Positions 45,591 through 55,768 of a stretch of DNA of 64,000 bases are shown here, one piece after another. Source of the DNA: Rhodospirillales bacterium (GTDB taxonomy: Bacteria; Pseudomonadota; Alphaproteobacteria; Kiloniellales; JACOMY01); assembly GCA_014324045.1 (NCBI GenBank), contig JACOMY010000005.1, forward strand, positions 1 through 64,000. Reading direction: 5' to 3'. Both the position numbers and the translations under genes were made by a program. The notes beneath the pieces are model-generated. The model was not told the DNA's origin. It searched no databases and saw only the letters and a program-made list of their open reading frames with translations. How positions within the stretch are numbered: position 1 is the first letter of the stretch; the number at the start of each line of letters is the position of its first letter.

Positions 45591-48500
45591 TTATTCGCGG
45601 CAGCTAATCACGGGACCAACGCTTAACACTGTTTTCTGGTCAAAAGTGTGCACAACCGCAAACGAAATATCGGCCAGGCGAATCGCCTGCGACTGAATGG
45701 AAGAGGAGAAGTCAAACGGCATTACTCGTCCGCTGCGCCAGAATCCGAAGCCCTGATCAAGACGAACCTGGAGTTTCGAACCGTCGGCCCAATTAAGGGT
45801 CAGCCGGCGTTCGTGCGGCAAGGCCCTGCGGCCCCGTAGGACTAGACTGCCCTGCAGATCTACCTTTGCGAACATAGTCTTCATAACCCTGCAGCGGTCA
45901 TCATCCAACTGCCAATTGTCATGCAGTCTCCCAGAGTACCTCGATTGGCCCGTCTGGCGTGGCTGCATCGAGGATACTTCAATCGGTGTGTCGTTGCAGA
46001 TGCCGGGAATACTCCGGACGACCTCAAATAACAGGCGGATTACCAGAGGAGACAGAAGATACCGATCAGAATAGCTCACCGTCGATGGGGATTCTTTCGT
46101 CAGAAGCTGGCGCGCGTCAGGAGTAAATTTCTGGATCAACTGCCAAAACTTGCTTCCGAAGCCGGAAACGGTACCATCGAGCTGACCGCCAACTGCAAAC
46201 TCCCTGACCTCGTGGCCTATCGGCGGACGAAGATCGTCAACTGAAATCGCATCATCCGCATCGAGACGTCGATGAGAACCTCGGATCAATGGCGAATCGA
46301 CTGTCTGCCCCCAGTTGTCATTCGGTGCTACAGAATCCATCTCCCTGGTTGCCCAAGCCATAGCACGGTCTGCTTCGTTGACAACTGCCAACAACGTCCA
46401 ATCTCCCAAGCCTGAGCCCTTTCGAGCAATATGGACAGTTGCGCCGCTCCGCATAGTCAGGGCGTGCAGGTGCCTGAGTTGACTCGTTGACAACCGGCCG
46501 ATCGCGTCTTGCTCGACAAGGAGTTCAACCTTGCAGCCAGCGTGAAGCGCCCGGTCGACCAGCAGTCTCGCAGACCAGCTATCGAGTTCCCAAAGATCGC
46601 TATCGCCGCCGAGTGGAAGCTGGAGAAGGTTCCCAGGCTTAAGCTGCCCGGAAATGGCACCGGCTACCTCCCGGACTTCAATGGCGGACGATGAACCGAA
46701 GACCTGCAAGTCCTCAGGCATTTGCAAACTCGGAAGGACGCGGCTCTGTAGCAGGTCGAGTGCGCTCTTCCGGTCCAATTTGTCCATGTGAAACCTACTG
46801 TCCTGCGTCAGGATGCAGGAGGAACAGGCATTCACGCAGCCCCTATTGCTACAATTTAGCTGCCGGGAGGCTTCCTGCAGTAGGTCGTGAATGCGGTCAG
46901 CGGCTTGGGTTGCCAGACCCGCTCCGCCAGAAGCCTGGTCATAGAGAAAGATGCTCCAGCAGCCCTGTCCTTCTGGACCGCTCCTGTAAAGGGCAGACCA
47001 ACCAACCTCACTATTCTCGACGCCGAGATCACGGCACAGCGCTTCTCGCAGAGCGATCGAAACTGAGTGGGCAGCATGTTCGTGCCCGCGCCTGTGACTG
47101 AGGTCAAAGACTTGGAGTTCGAAAACGTCTGTTTGCGAAAATGCGCCGAGCGCCAAATGCCGGCGGATGGCGAAGTGGGACTGTGTCCCGGTGCAAAATT
47201 GCTGGCCACTACTTAGAGGACGATGTTCCTTCATCCTCTGGCTCAAAGGTCGGAGCCCCTGCGATGTTGGGGGGTGTTCCGGTTCGGCCCTTCCACAATG
47301 CAGGCACAGGGCATAGCCATGCCCTTGTTGGCCTAGAGTCGAGTGGAACACTGAGCCCCTACGGGTATGCCGCATGCGCCCGACCTCAGGATTGGGGAGC
47401 GGTGTCCAGCGTGCGTCGTTGGCTGAAATATTAGGCTCTACCGGACGCACGGAATCGATCTGTGTCACATCGGTATGGGGACGATCGGCCGTATCGATCG
47501 TGAACCCGGCCGGCTGCAGATACTCACGGCGCTGCAGATTCTGCTTGCCGCACTCTGCACAGTGGGAAGGCTTGCTTGCAGCATCGCCAGACGCGTTGCA
47601 GCTTTGGCAACGCCAAGCCCAGCGTAATGCCTGGGGTAGCCGGCTGTCGTCGTCGGGGCGGCGCCAATTCAACCGCACACCGGCGCATCGATAAACAAGC
47701 CCATCCAGCACGACTTCTGCGCCCGGTGCATAATCCCTTATGGCAGTCCGGAGTTCGCGAGATGGGCTGTCCCGAAGCAGAAAGCGGTTGTCGTCACCGG
47801 GCAACCGCCGATCGTCTCTCCTGCCAAGCCGTAGCAGAAACGGCACTACGTTCGTTGGATAGCCATAGGCCGGGAGAAAACTGCGCCCGGCAAGCTCACC
47901 GAGCAAATAGGCGGAAGTCTGCCGTTCCAACTGATTGAGAAGGCGTTTGCGATCCGCTGAACCATCGCGAATGCCTGCCAGTTCCTCAGCCAACGCATCC
48001 ACTTCGCCCTGCCATGACACCTGCAGGCCGTTCATATGGTTCGCGCATTCCCCGAACAGATCCGCCTGTTGCTTGAGCGCGGTGCCCCACACAAGGCGGC
48101 CGAGCCCCTTAACGATTGGCTCGGGCATCCTTGCGTCAGCTAGACACCAGGCGATAAATCTATCCGCGATGGATTTCCGCGAGCGTTGCAGAGCTTTTTT
48201 CTCCACCACTCGCCCGAAGAAGAAGCCCGGTTCCAGCTTATGGAGCTCTTCCTCCTGCTGCAAACGCAGAAAACTGCTCAAGAGATAGGCATTGACATGG
48301 CGTTGAACCACGATCGGACTGTCGAGCTTGACTTTTGGAGTTCTCAAATTTGCCGTCAATGGCCGCGTGGGCTCAGTAAAAGTTGTCCGGCCCAGCGGTT
48401 CGTCCCGGACAAATGTCAATGCCAGGGACATCGCCTCCGAACGGCGGCCTGCACGACCGACACGTTGCCTGTAGTTGGTCGGCGAAGGCGGTACATTGGT

Positions 48501-51500
48501 ATTGACCACGGCCGCCAACCCGCCGATGTCGACGCCCATCTCCATTGTCGTAGAGCAACTGAGGAGATTGATACGCCCTTTCCTGAATTCCCGTTCGTAG
48601 TAGCGAAGTCGTTCACTTGGCTGTTGCGCAGAATGCTCTGCTGCCAGGTATGGGCGCTCAAATCGCGCAACTCTGTCGTGCAGGTTGGACCAGACCCCGG
48701 CCTCGCGAAGGTCCCGTATCTCTGGATCGGTGCTAACCCATTCCGACACTTCCGCCTCGTCACCGGAGTTCTTCGGAAAGGAAACAGGCAGTTTCGGGAA
48801 GGTAATTTTTTGGCATTCCAAGCTGCCAAATTCCGTCCCAGACGGCTGGTATGGCGATAGGCCGCACACGGTGTCGTCCAAAACCGATCACGTGATCGGA
48901 CATAGCCACCCATGCGTGACGGGCGCAAGCCGAGCGCCCCGCAAATCCAGTTGAAAGCCGCGTGCGCCTGGGCGCGGCACAAGAACAGGTTGGAGATCGG
49001 ACCAGGCTTGCCCTATACAAGCGTTCAGTCGGTCGCGGTCCGCCGGAACGGCCGCATCGAGGTTCAGAATGTACGATAACAGCGAAAGGGCGTTCGATTG
49101 CCGGCCACCAGGCCGGGCTTGTGGCCAGCGTCTATTGCCTTCCGGAACGCCATCGAAGTGTGGCGGCAGGACAGAGCGGACTGGACTGCGAATGCCGAGC
49201 CATCGTACGTCTTCTCGATCGACAGCGACGGCAAGATTCCCGCGCACAACATGCGTGAGCAGATAGCGCAAGAATGACTTCCACGCATCGATCTTGAGAT
49301 TGGCGGAAGAGAAGGCTTCTGGAATATGCCGGTCTTCAAGTTTCTCTATTGCCTCGAACCTGAGCCAGGCCAAGCCCATTCTCTCGGCACTGTTGGCACG
49401 CTTTGGTCTCTTCCTGAGTTCTCTCAACAGCAGCAAGTGGCTCAGTCGTTCGCTGTCAACAAATCGATCGTCGCGCCAAGCCCATACGGCCTCCTGAACC
49501 CAATGCTCGAAATCCGGTTGACTGGAGAGATTACGGACTAGGGCTTCCCATGTGATGCCACGCCGCCGGCCGCCAAGACTTATCTCCTCAAGGCGGCGAC
49601 GCTTCCGATCGTAGAATTCTTTGATCTCCGGTTGTTCCTTGAGTGCTTCTAGCTGCGCTAGATCGTTTTTTATCTCGGTGATCTTCTCACGATCCTCGTC
49701 CGACAATTCGTTATTCTGGACGGCGTGATAAATCACCGACCGCACAAAGTTCCGCTCGCTGTCCTGTTGTAGCCGTGCAGCGAACCGCGCCGTGCCTTGC
49801 CTGCTGTCGGTGAAGCTGATCAATTGACGGCCATTCCACGGCAAAGGCCCATCTAGTTGTGTCGTCGGCCGCTCCGGCAGTTGCTGGAGTAGGTTGGGGA
49901 TCGCATTCCCAAGCAGGAAAGGTGCACCGAAACGAAGACGGCGCAGGAAATCCGACCGGCGACGGCTTCCCGAAGCACCGCACGAAGCGCAGCGATTTGC
50001 CTCGGCGATCCGGAGTTCAAGAGCGCCGTCGCTGCGCATGTCCAGAATGTCGCCGGTCGAGGCGTTCACCGAAATCGGCCAGCTAACATCGGGCCTAGCA
50101 CGCCCGACGATTAATCGCCTGTCGGATATAGTGTCCGCTGTTTCATACGGTTCGCTTTCGTCGTCACCGTCATCATCGCCGCCGGCGTCTGCAGCGGCAA
50201 GTTCGCTTCCCTGCGCGAACTCGTCCTCAAGTTGATGTGGCCGGTATTGTGCAAGTCGTTTCCCGTCGATCTCCTCCGCCAGAAGATGCGGCTCGCCGCA
50301 CTCATCGCACGCTGCCAGTTCAAAGAGGATTGATCCGCAACTCGCGCAGTTGTCTTTTTCCTCAAGAAACACGGCTCCCCAAGGCCAGTCCTCATCGGGA
50401 AGCGCCTTGTCGAGCCGCTCGGGACACTCCCGGTTAGAACAGACCCAGAGACCAGGTTGTGCCCTATGGAACAGATGCAGGCGTACCGGCAGCAGGCGTT
50501 TCTCACCGACGTGCAGTTCAGCCGCCGTCTCCACAATGTTCAGCGCGTCTCTGCTCCGAGAATCATCGTTAAACAGCAGCTTTGCAGCTCCGGAGATCGC
50601 AAGCGGTTCGCCGTCTGCTAGGTGATTGCGAAGGCGACGGAATGGCTTTGCGCCAACCAAATGAGTAAGCTTCTCAGTATCGGTGAAGCCGTTTAGCAAG
50701 GCTACGTCGACGTCGTCGCCTGTCGGCGACGTTTTTAGCCTGGGTACGTCTCTTTTGCCGACGACAATGCGTACCTTATTCGCTGGAATTCCTGCCATGT
50801 CGGCCAGAAAGTGGCGCAGTTCTTCTTCGACGGTTTCGCCCGAGCCGATCGTGGCCGAAGTCGCCACGAAACGGACATCTTCGGCGCGTACTTCGAAGGC
50901 TTCCAGGACGCGCCTGAGCAAGAGTGAAATTTCTGCTGCCTGCGATCCGACATAAGTGTGCGCCTCGTCGAGCACGATCCAACGCAGTCTGCCTTTCGAC
51001 TGCTCGATGATCGGTGCATCGATCTGCCGGATCAGCATGTACTCGAGCATCGTGATGTTGGTCACGAGAATCGGTGGTGCGTCGTCACGCAGCGTTGCCC
51101 GGTCTCGCACTTCGCTTGGAAAGCGTCTCGATTCGGCCTCCGGCACTTGCTCCGGCGTTCCGCCGTTGTAGAGGCAAAAGCGAATTCGCCCGTCGAAGTC
51201 GTGGGTCCAGTCCAGCAGGCGTTCACGCTGACTATTAATTAGCGCATTGAGCGGATACAGCATCAAGGCACTGACACCACGCAGCTGATCTTGTTCTCGA
51301 TAACGTTGAATCAAATCCTCGAGGATCGGTATGAGGAAGCATTCGGTCTTACCCGACCCGGTGCCGGAGGTGACGAGGACCGACGACGGCGGTTCCGCCA
51401 ACAGCGTCTTCCAAGCATCCAACTGGTGAGCATAAGGATGGGTTGACCTAGCAAGTCTGTAGCGATCGTCCCTCAGGTCGGGGAAATGTGGGGTCTTGCC

Positions 51501-51755
51501 GTCGAGAACATCCAACAGCTCTTTGCTGAGCAGGCTGTCCGATAAGTCTGCAAGGCTTCGATCGGCGGGCAACCAGCCGAAAGCGCCCTCTAGGACTGGA
51601 TCGGCGAGGAAGCTTCCGGGCTCGCCTGGCTTGGCAGAAAGCGCCTTGCGCAAAAAACCGTTCAGGGGGCGCGACCGGATCCCAGCTTGGCTAATGATGG
51701 CATCGGCTGAGCGCTGGCAGAGATCTTCTAGGAACTTGTAGATGCCTCTTGTCAT
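45591..51755 (-). pseudogene. druE: DruE-like DUF1998 helicase, broken by one in-frame TGA
   Basis: One 2055-codon frame split by TGA at 48888-48890. The two ORF-track pieces (48888-51785 and 45591-48881) are in the same frame, reading WLCPIT-stop-SVLDDTVCGLSPY. A single CGA-to-TGA change would explain it. The N-terminal part has DEAD-helicase motifs SGTGSGKTECFL and VLDEAHTYVGSQAAEIS, zinc-ribbon cysteines, and ISFTDSRQGTARFAARL. The C-terminal part has motif VI YRQRVGRAGRRSE and a DUF1998 cysteine cluster CSNRGCVNACSSCIL. Size, domain order and the partner upstream fit DruE of Druantia anti-phage systems; other DUF1998 helicases are possible. ATG 51755 has AGGAG upstream; a TTG at 51785 overlaps the druH stop. 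Confidence 0.75.
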
Positions 51756-51781
51756 TGCGCTCTCCTGCCATTCACAAGCTC

Positions 51782-54700
51782 TCAATTCCTCGGATCTCGC
51801 GCAAAATGCAGAATGCCCAACGGATAGACGCGGTCGAAGTAGGTCTGATCGAAGCGCCGCGCCTCCCGCACCGAACGACTTAATTCGGAATTCGATGGAA
51901 GCCCATGAGCTGCGTAACGGGCTGCAAGCAAGGGAGCTGCAAGTGCCGGAAGCATGTGCGGGGCAGCATCGGGCAGCAAGCTACATACGTCTTGGATCCT
52001 CGATTGTAGGATAGACCAGGAAGGCCACTGGCGGTCAGAATTCCTAATCATGAAGGACTGGCATTCGCCGGCCAGCGTAACGCTCTCGCTCGCGTCCTCC
52101 GATGGCGGCAAGCTGATCCCGGTTTTTTGAGAGATCGCACGCACCGTGGCGTATAGACGCGGTGCCGCATCCGCAATCCAGATCAGTCTTTCCGCCACAA
52201 ACTGCCCGGCAAGGCGATCGTGGTCTGGCACGCCATGCATTTGCAACGATTGCGACAGCGTCTTAAGACAAGCTGAGAACGCCCCGACCCACTGCTCTAT
52301 CGGCACCAAACACCAACAAAATGGCACCTCGTCCTCCGGCTATCAAATAATACATGTAAAGCGCGAGGGCACCAAACACCAACAAAATGGCAGCTCGTCC
52401 TCCATATTGACAACCGCTTCGATGGAGCGACGGTCCTGCCGACCGGCCAACATCGCGACCAAGGCTTTGGGATCTGCGGAAAGCGCTACCAACCAATCCA
52501 AAATGGTCAACGATAGCTTGCCTTTATATGTGCGCAGCGCCGCATCGAACTGTTTCCAATCGGGATCGAGCGGATCGGCTGCAATTTGCTCCAGATGTTC
52601 AACCATCGCCGCCAGTCGCACGTTCTTGTCGCTGAGCAAGACGCAAGCAACGAAAGGCTCTTCCGCTCGTTCATGTTTGCCTTGCGGTGGGATTACGATT
52701 GGCCGCGTTCTCGGCCGTCCTCTCACCTCACCCCAAAGCAGAATGGGCGAAGCGGAGATCGGTACACTCGTCATTTGCGTAAGATTGGCTGACGATAGCA
52801 CACCAAGCGTGTTCGGTGACTGTATAAGGTCGGTCAGGTCTGCGGTCAGGATCTCAACGCGCTCCGCACCTTCGTCGCGTAGCTTTTGAACGGATTGTGC
52901 CGCTAAATGAACATTGCGTGTCCCGGAGGTTTCAAGGGACAAGTCGAAGCGGCCAAGTTCAATCCGGGCATTCTCAAGCTCAAGTCGGATATGAGCGTCG
53001 AGATCGTCGCTCTCCGAAAGCAGCGCCTCGAACTCGGATTGGTGCGCCGCGATCGAAACCAAACCTTGGACAGGAACGGCATAACTGAGATTCTGTCCGC
53101 GGCCGACAGCGAGAAGCTTAGCAAATAGCAGAGACTTCAAAGGTGCCGAAGCTCTAAGCCCTGCCAGCTGATCAAGTCTATAGGGCACATACGATCGCTC
53201 TATCCAACTACCGTCGGCAGTAATGAAACCGACCCTGTTCCCAGGAAAAGGCACGCTCATTGGTCCAGTCGCGCCTGTAGGAAAACGGATGTCGATCGTC
53301 AGATGGGATGGCGGCGCATTCGGCGAAGCGATGTCTAATCCATACACGCTTTCTGCGCGACGGGGCTGAATGTTCAGATCGTCGCATTGCTCCACCCAGA
53401 TCTCCGCGCCTTCGAGGCCATAAAAATGCAAGCTACCCTCACCTGCACCTCTGGCACTGACTTCCAATCTGAACTCGTCCGGCAGTACGATCGCCCTCGC
53501 GCTTGCCTGCAACTCCTCATTCACGACGACCGCGATGTCGATCGCTCCGACGGGTGGCCGATTTCGATCCAATATTGTCCATGATTGGCGACGGCCCACG
53601 GGCCGCCATCGAATTGAGTGCGTAGGGACATTGATACCGCCCTCAAACAACAATGTCGGCCAGCCGACGCAGATGAGTGTTTGCGAGGAAATCTGCGATG
53701 GCGGTTTGCCAAATATTATTAAACGCCGTCGCCGATCTTTCTCGGCTCCGGGGACGACTCGCACGACCAAACCATCGGACGTATCGAAGGTGGCGGGGGC
53801 AGTCACTTCGATTAGGTTAAGCCTCGGGGAACGTAGGTTTTCCTTTCGCGGTTCCACCGCCTCAGCATCCACTTGCAGCGACACAGCGCTGTCGTCGAAA
53901 GCCACCCAAATGGAGGCGGCACGACTCTGCAGGCTTCCTGAACCGGCATGCACCAACTCGCCAGTCTCCGCGTCCTTCAGAAAGACTTGAATCTCACCGT
54001 CCAATCTCTCGCCACCGGGGACCACGAATGGATCGGATACTTGGTTGCCGACCCGCGCGGTCATTTCCACCGATTCCTCCAAGGGCAACGGTATTGCGGC
54101 ATCACGGTAACGCATCGGACGAAATGCCCAGCGATCTTCTTCACGGCGCTCGCCGATCGAAAGCTCTCCCGGTGCCACACTGCCGAAGGCTGCGTTCCCT
54201 TGCAGACGAACTCTCAGTACTTCGGTACCGATCATGCTCTGAATGCTATGCGGGAGGCGTCTCGATGAGACTTCACCGGCAAGACTCAGTCGAACGGCCG
54301 GCGTCCAGTGCCCGAGGCCGTCATTGACAAGCACACGACGAATGAACGCACCCAAGGAACCACCGCCTTGGTCTTGCACGCGCTGACGCACGAGCCCTCG
54401 CACTAGTTCCCTTGCAGCTTGGTCGGAAAGGCGAACTGGGAGCTGATTATCCCAACCGGGTGCACACTCGTTCAGCCGAAGGATCGGGTCTGCAAACTCC
54501 TCGAGCGGACCAAGGTGCTCCCGCAGCGATCGGGTAACATCGACCAGTTCGGCGCCAAGATGATAGATCTCGTCGTGACAGAGGCTCGCTGGCAAATAAC
54601 TCCTAGCGTGCTGTGTCGCGACGTCTTCTAGTTCAGCGGAATCGAGCCCGTATTTCTTTGCATCGGCAAGCAGAAGGGTGAGCCAGCGCCGTACAGATGC

Positions 54701-55130
54701 GGCCTCGTGATGAATGAGGGCTTCGGGGAATCCGCCCTCGACTACAACGGAGAACATGTACTGGGTCTGCGTTTCGGTGCGCCGCAATGGCCGCTGCCAC
54801 CAGTTAAAGCCGTCTGTGATAATCCCGGCTCGCTCATCAAATTGATCGAAATGAACGCCGATAGGCTGCTCCACAGTCGCCCAGGTCCAGGCGCCATGCT
54901 GATGTTTTGTGCGAAACGCCTCAGAGGCGTAGAGGACATACGCCGCGGTTGTCGCACGTACGCCGAACACTCTCGGCGTACTGCTTCAACAAGGCTTCCA
55001 AGCTTAGCATCTCGTCGCTGGTTATGCGGTAGGCGTAAAGAGTCCGCCAATCTGGCTCCTCAAGATCGCGAGCCTGGAGAAACTGGCCAAGCCAGCGATG
55101 GAATAGATAGTCGAGAGTCCCGTTTGCCAT
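51782..55130 (-). pseudogene. druH: DruH-like (STY4851/ECs_5259-type) protein, broken by a frameshift and an in-frame duplication
   Basis: A gene of about 1100 codons, now in three pieces. The N-terminal piece starts at ATG 55130 and includes LEEPDWRTLYAYRITSDEM. It shifts frame by one base near 54960, joining ESVR to ATTAAYVLYASEAFRTKH. The large middle piece ends at 52343 after FCWCLVPSRFTCII with TGA TAG. The C-terminal piece resumes in frame as PFCWCLVPIEQWV and ends at 51782. Removing a 66-bp duplication restores the join. The N-terminal LYAYR and LYASE...GAWTW patterns match my memory of the STY4851/ECs_5259 family, the DruH protein of Druantia type III, and the druE-like gene follows directly. 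Function in that system is unknown; it is called essential for defence there. Confidence 0.62.
52302..52403. repeat. druH: 36-bp direct repeats, 66-bp offset, disrupting druH
   Basis: Copies at 52302-52337 and 52368-52403 (GGCACCAAACACCAACAAAA...) differ at one base and are separated by a 30-bp AT-rich spacer. The unit length of 66 bp keeps the reading frame but brings TGA and TAG into it. It looks like an imperfect tandem duplication or a small insertion that copied its target. Confidence 0.9.
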
Positions 55131-55768
55131 GAGCACCACAACCCTTTTGGGTAGTTGTTTATGCCACTCATATTCAAGCTGCGTCTGCGAACGCATGCAA
55201 CTGGTGCGAGACTGACACAACGCATCAAGCTTAGCGATCTGCCTAGCGACTTTAACTACCCGCGTTAATCCGACATTCCCCAAGTCAGGCGCCGTTTGAC
55301 AGCAGAATTGCATGATCGGGCCAGCCGATCGAACGTTTTTCGGCGCGGTCAGGCCGGAGCACTTGCGGCCGGTGGGATTGGGCCGTGAGTTCCCCAGCTC
55401 TCCATAGACCGGCCGCCGGAACAACCTGTCGAGTCAATGGAACCTGTGCTTGCCCGGACGGCTATTGTGCAGGACCGTTGCCGCCAGATCGGACAGCCCG
55501 AGTCCGCCGTCACGTGCGTGCATCACCGACAGCCCAGCGTCCGAACCGGGCGGCGCGCCCTGGAATTCCGGTCGCGTCCGCCCTAGCTGGACCCAAAGGT
55601 CAGACCACCCGATCGTCCCCTTTGCAACCTGCACCCCTTGGGGGAGCTGGCAGGTTCGCCCTTCCAAGCCGTTAAAGTCCCGATTTACCATAAAAATACT
55701 GCAATCGGGACAGCCAAAGCAGCGGATCGCTCGGAGAATGCGAGCTGGAATGCAGGCTGGATGGTTAG
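55131..55768. other. Region between druH and gcvT
   Basis: 638 bases without a recognised gene; right boundary of the defence block. The frame of the druH N-terminal piece stays open upstream to 55424, but its content upstream of 55130 does not resemble the family. A minus-strand frame from about 55693 to 55434 (MVNRDFNGLEGRTCQLP... to NSRPGKHRFH) is open for some 85 codons but I recognise nothing in it. A stable inverted repeat sits at 55626-55656. gcvH and gcvP, which often follow gcvT, are not here. Confidence 0.5.
55626..55656. repeat. 31-bp stem-loop near the right boundary of the defence block
   Basis: AACCTGC (55626-55632) pairs with GCAGGTT (55650-55656), and inside it CCCC pairs with GGGG around a two- or three-base turn. 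No U-tract follows on either strand, so it is not a classical terminator. Confidence 0.55.

Follow-up and report, generated by a model that had tools for sequence, protein, structure and literature searches.

A 66-bp insertion in a Druantia druH gene as the very likely product of off-target CRISPR spacer integration

RESULTS

Structure of the druH insertion

We analyzed a 64,000-nucleotide window of a Rhodospirillales bacterium genome (contig JACOMY010000005.1, positions 1 to 64,000) in which druH and druE lie next to each other, as they do in Druantia type III, and in which druH is cut short by a 66-bp unit consisting of a duplicated target and an insert. These 66 bp are very likely the result of one off-target spacer integration by Cas1-Cas2 of the host's own type II (II-C) system of clustered regularly interspaced short palindromic repeats (CRISPR), and the same genome very probably holds several further misplaced spacers from both of its CRISPR systems. 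The duplicated target has the length of the II-C repeat (36 bp in each), the insert has the length of the II-C spacer (30 bp), and type II cas1, cas2, and cas9 genes are present in the same genome.

The two copies of the target differ by a single C/G mismatch over 36 bp, and the DNA between them has a GC content of 40%, against 63% for the surrounding window. This structure was found exactly as a preceding sequence-only reading had described it, with two 36-bp copies differing at one base around a 30-bp spacer. The same reading placed TGA TAG in an in-frame 66-bp unit that ends druH, and both stop codons of the druH frame (minus strand; TGA at 52343-52345 and TAG at 52340-52342) do lie within the insert. 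Across the site the minus-strand frame reads ...NMEDELPFCWCLVP SRFTCII TGA TAG PEDEVPFCWCLVP IEQWVGAF.... Because the inserted unit is 66 bp long, the reading frame is retained apart from the stops, and the protein resumes beyond the insert as predicted: the downstream frame matches the C-terminal part of DruH3 (Table 1).

In other genomes, DruH homologues from seven loci can be aligned through the insertion point and lack the 22 residues that the unit adds. The 36-mer therefore belongs to the original coding sequence, to which 66 bp were added; the possibility that relatives carry the unit too, which the sequence-only reading had named as a refutation, is not borne out. A search of genome_contigs gave no named relative of druH. 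The closest homologue at the insertion point (L011) reads VELEDELPFLWCLSD-INALRR and has the L form at the mismatch position, and the ancestral base sits in the copy at 52368-52403 (EDELPF). This ancestral state is seen at the protein level. With up to three mismatches allowed, the 30-bp insert occurs once in the genome, which settles the search for further copies that had been proposed, and it is absent from the other searched genomes of the class. Neither this insert nor those at the other loci described below have terminal inverted repeats.

The Druantia III reading frames are not intact. In addition to the 66-bp unit, druH carries a frameshift and druE a nonsense codon, and the DruE profile match breaks off at 947 and picks up at 951, around the in-frame TGA. 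Given these three separate breaks, we regard the operon as a relic, not a functioning system. The likeness to Druantia type III is that the gene bearing the insertion is the druH of a druH-druE pair; the difference is that the operon here carries three lesions.

Resident CRISPR systems

The window's own genome has two cas1 loci. Contig C44 encodes type II cas1, cas2, and a 1102-residue cas9 adjoining an array of 36-bp repeats, in which 9 of the 10 intervals are 30 bp long, giving a unit of 66 bp. We call this system type II-C because its genes run cas9-cas1-cas2 with no other cas gene noted and the upstream repeat is degenerate. A type I-E cas1 is found with 77 I-E repeats on contigs C15 and C36, where the unit measures 61 bp in 72 of 75 cases and 62 bp in the other 3. 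A G adjoins the repeat in 68 of the 75 I-E spacers (leader orientation), the usual base derived from the protospacer-adjacent motif.

Several other features of these arrays were observed. The lone 69-bp interval of the II-C array (L005:2648-2716) seems to consist of a truncated repeat (GCGGTTGA...TAAGTA) and then a spacer of the normal 30 bp. Solitary II-C repeats lie outside the array at L005:1488, 13445, and 15024, the latter two within duplicated blocks with a small coiled-coil-like gene that is also present beside the array. A large I-E array, with 71 repeats (L098, G000:C36, 49-4400), stands apart from the I-E cas genes on C15, possibly owing to a contig break where C15 ends. According to published work (PMC12638026, PMC12080349), type II-C arrays lengthen at their downstream end; inspection by eye gave no shared leader motif that convinced us.

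Genome-wide scan for interrupted direct repeats

We scanned 2,816,197 of the 2,817,712 bases of the genome (99.9%) for isolated near-exact direct repeats with unique DNA in between, excluding arrays and repeat-protein genes. Shifts of 30 to 200 were covered over most of the genome and of 20 to 150 over the last 91 kb. Seven isolated interrupted pairs were left, with shifts of 66 (n = 3), 61 (n = 2), 60 (n = 1), and 65 (n = 1). Because only seven pairs of such quality exist in 2,816,197 bases, the druH pair is far beyond chance. Assuming uniform shifts, the probability that at least five of seven pairs fall at 61 or 66 is 4.5e-9, where the two values were set by the native arrays and not fitted and the range of 30 to 200 and the cut-off were our choice.

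TABLE 1 Coordinates of the druH insertion, the Druantia genes, and the isolated interrupted pairs
Feature	Position	Strand	Shift (bp)	Copy/insert (bp)	Remarks
Copy 1 of duplicated druH target, 36 bp	52302..52337	.			Derived base: V codon instead of L
Unique 30-bp insert, proposed off-target spacer	52338..52367	.			Contains druH in-frame TGA and TAG
Copy 2 of duplicated druH target, 36 bp	52368..52403	.			Ancestral base at mismatch
druH, main part, 875 codons, terminated by insert	52343..54970	-			PADLOC DruH3 E 3.4e-71; NCBIfam NF038336
druH, C-terminal part downstream of insert	51782..52327	-			PADLOC DruH3 positions 960-1138 of 1142
druH, N-terminal piece, other frame	54921..55424	-			Matches DruH3 13-119; frameshift ~54939-54955
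druE, N-terminal part	48888..51785	-			Closed by in-frame TGA 48888-48890; PADLOC DruE3 7-947 of 2055
druE, C-terminal part	45591..48881	-			Frame unchanged; PADLOC DruE3 951-2049 of 2055
druH pair			66	36/30	
Pair	C1:27019		66	41/25	One mismatch
Pair	C29:12437		66	37/29	
Pair	C37:9593		61	31/30	
Pair	C4:63074		61	31/30	
Pair	C19:29553		60	27/33	
Pair	C27:41149 (L164:1149-1246)		65	33/32	33-bp repeat exact

The 61-bp insertion at C4:63074 interrupts a helicase-like gene at LNVAITRARREL. Its orthologue in L174, whose protein is 76% identical, aligns in two blocks that share 26 bp of L174 sequence; this overlap makes L174 an empty site for the event at the nucleotide level, the only such site in the set. 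At C29:12437, a 66-bp event adds 22 residues to the N-terminal end of a transporter that we take, from resemblance, to be YhhQ-like, and seven orthologues of the gene are without these residues. No relative of the gene at C1:27019 turned up in 60 genomes, and therefore this event could not be polarised. The C37:9593 pair lies in no convincing gene, and those at C27:41149 and C19:29553 are apparently intergenic, the former upstream of a nitroreductase-like frame.

A further pair with a shift of 66 and 25-bp copies, at C2:122387 (L053:2387-2477), stands outside the seven and was doubtful at first. Paralogues of its gene in the same genome are short by exactly 22 residues at that point, and it is therefore best read as an older 66-bp event whose copies have decayed.

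Other candidates were judged not to be such events and were set aside. At C7:1733 (L065:1733-1864) there is a 66-bp tandem duplication with one mismatch and no insert, whose match to the length of the II-C unit is possibly a coincidence. C12:17589 consists of degenerate coding repeats, L006:3184 of two similar stretches that are tRNA-like by eye, and the shifts of 99 and 102 come from ankyrin- or TPR-like arrays.

Target sites

The three targets of I-E-like length weakly but jointly resemble the I-E repeat in register (p values of 0.062, 0.059, and 0.009), in line with a reported tendency to pick look-alikes. The druH 36-mer matches the genome's CRISPR repeat at 11 of 36 positions in the best ungapped alignment, which is typical of random sites, and we rejected the idea that the druH site is a canonical CRISPR array because its 36-mer is not close to that repeat. 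A G is the first base in each of the three clean 66-bp targets. The type II-A integrase prefers guanine when acting off target in vitro (PMC6895254), and a border G at three sites is consistent with that preference but is not proof of it.

DISCUSSION

The druH unit can be accounted for by a single reaction. In the mechanism that we propose, a 30-bp prespacer would have been joined to opposite strands of druH at two points 36 bp apart, much as the integrase acts at either edge of a repeat in an array. Filling of the gaps would then have doubled the 36-bp target and left copy, 30-bp spacer, and copy in a row; a later point mutation would have altered one copy, and stops present in the spacer by chance would have cut DruH short. 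Cas1-Cas2 is the presumed agent of this reaction, and the 30 bp presumably came from a mobile element. Because the duplicated 36-mer is unlike the II-C repeat, no working guide RNA would be expected from the site, and the event was probably just a damaging insertion in an operon with two other lesions.

Several observations weigh against this mechanism. The 36-bp targets assigned to II-C do not look like the II-C repeat. The C27:41149 pair (33/32, 65 bp) matches neither CRISPR unit and is unexplained, and the shift of 60 at C19:29553 is one base under the I-E unit. In C1:27019 and both 61-bp cases, the identical stretch is 3 to 5 bp above the ideal duplication, and for true duplications of 36 and 28 bp, the excess would have to be chance identity at the ends, which in each case has a probability of no more than a few per cent; in total length, however, all three units are exact. 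All seven shifts come from a single genome. Finally, searches of phages, plasmids, IMG/VR, and the genomes of the class yielded no convincing protospacer for the druH 30-mer, and none was obtained for the inserts at the other loci. Canonical II-C spacers fared no better: two of them matched nothing in IMG/VR, and ten searched as one joined query matched nothing in the phage collection, this last being a weak search because the runs of N in the query inflate E-values. Since the canonical spacers searched are also matchless, the missing protospacers count neither way, and this host's viruses have probably not been sampled.

Other origins for the 66 bp fit the data less well. The sequence-only reading had offered double-strand-break repair, and either this or replication template switching could have duplicated 36 bp of druH together with 30 bp of filler from elsewhere. 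Such processes do yield duplications with filler DNA. However, the genome offers no source for the 30-mer, and repair or switching fixes no length, yet several independent loci total 66 and 61 bp, the units of the two CRISPR systems. Break repair also gives no reason for the 36/30 split, which the host type II array matches exactly, and we consider an origin of this kind unlikely. Slippage with filler DNA, also proposed from the sequence, leaves the split equally unaccounted for, and slippage cannot make 30 bp of unique DNA. The last point also tells against a reversible switch, in which slippage or recombination between the copies would add and remove the unit and toggle druH. The copies are long enough for recombination, and the unit keeps the frame, but they are already diverging, and loss of the unit would not restore the system given the druH frameshift and the druE nonsense codon. 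The suggestion that this is a removable insertion acting as a switch is thus scarcely credible.

A tiny mobile element that makes a long target-site duplication would leave a duplicated flank around unique DNA, which is a general mark of insertion. However, the inserts are unrelated between loci and lack terminal inverted repeats, and 30 bp leaves no room for an element, so that this origin is equally hard to credit. The genome is a draft of 46 contigs, and an assembly artefact might be suspected, but the insert is unique, one base distinguishes the two copies, and the same lengths recur at unrelated loci elsewhere in the assembly, on other contigs; we think an artefact very improbable.

Off-target integration by Cas1-Cas2 is known in principle, in Escherichia coli in vivo and for type II-A in vitro. 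Nivala, Shipman, and Church reportedly described in 2018 the off-target (noncanonical) integration of spacers by Cas1-Cas2 in E. coli, with the resulting loci termed neo-CRISPR. That work is said to have relied mainly on type I-E over-expressed in E. coli and to have included a handful of putative natural cases, from Yersinia pestis and Sulfolobus islandicus. The neo-CRISPR loci and those described here have in common a repeat-length duplication around a spacer-length insert, outside arrays, in a genome with a matching integrase. They differ in that here a II-C ruler is found besides that of I-E and there are several events in one natural genome, several of them within genes.

The type II-A integrase of Streptococcus thermophilus integrates off target in vitro (Kim et al. 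2019, PMC6895254) and shares with the reaction proposed here a type II integrase, a 36-bp repeat, a 30-bp prespacer, and a border G. Those in vitro events were probably half-site, whereas here completed insertions are fixed in the chromosome. Ectopic acquisition inside arrays has been described for CRISPR1 and CRISPR3 of S. thermophilus (PMC7999890), where the integrase likewise acts away from the leader end; the targets there are canonical repeats within an array, whereas here they are genes and intergenic DNA. In the open-licence literature searched, we did not find a single wild genome in which two integrases had each completed such insertions, with II-C events and several hits within genes among them, and in this respect the observation looks new.

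A broader reading, which we offer tentatively and which could well prove wrong, is that this lineage has integrases of unusually low fidelity in nature. Both Cas1-Cas2 complexes would repeatedly write spacers across the chromosome, and CRISPR adaptation would be an insertional mutator, its spacing set by a fixed ruler, and would have damaged other genes, the Druantia operon among them. Under this broader reading, the II-C integrase appears to need little beyond a border G, and the protein, not the DNA, appears to set the 36-bp spacing.

Work on off-target integration by CRISPR integrases has been largely confined to laboratory experiments. Counting interrupted direct repeats by their spacing provides a natural record, with 66 and 61 bp as the marks of the two systems that coexist here. 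Events within genes prove the ancestral state, and mismatch counts rank the ages of events. The same repeat count can be applied to any CRISPR-bearing genome, so that the natural off-target rate and the site preference of each type become measurable. Insertional damage to host genes is a concrete cost of adaptive immunity.
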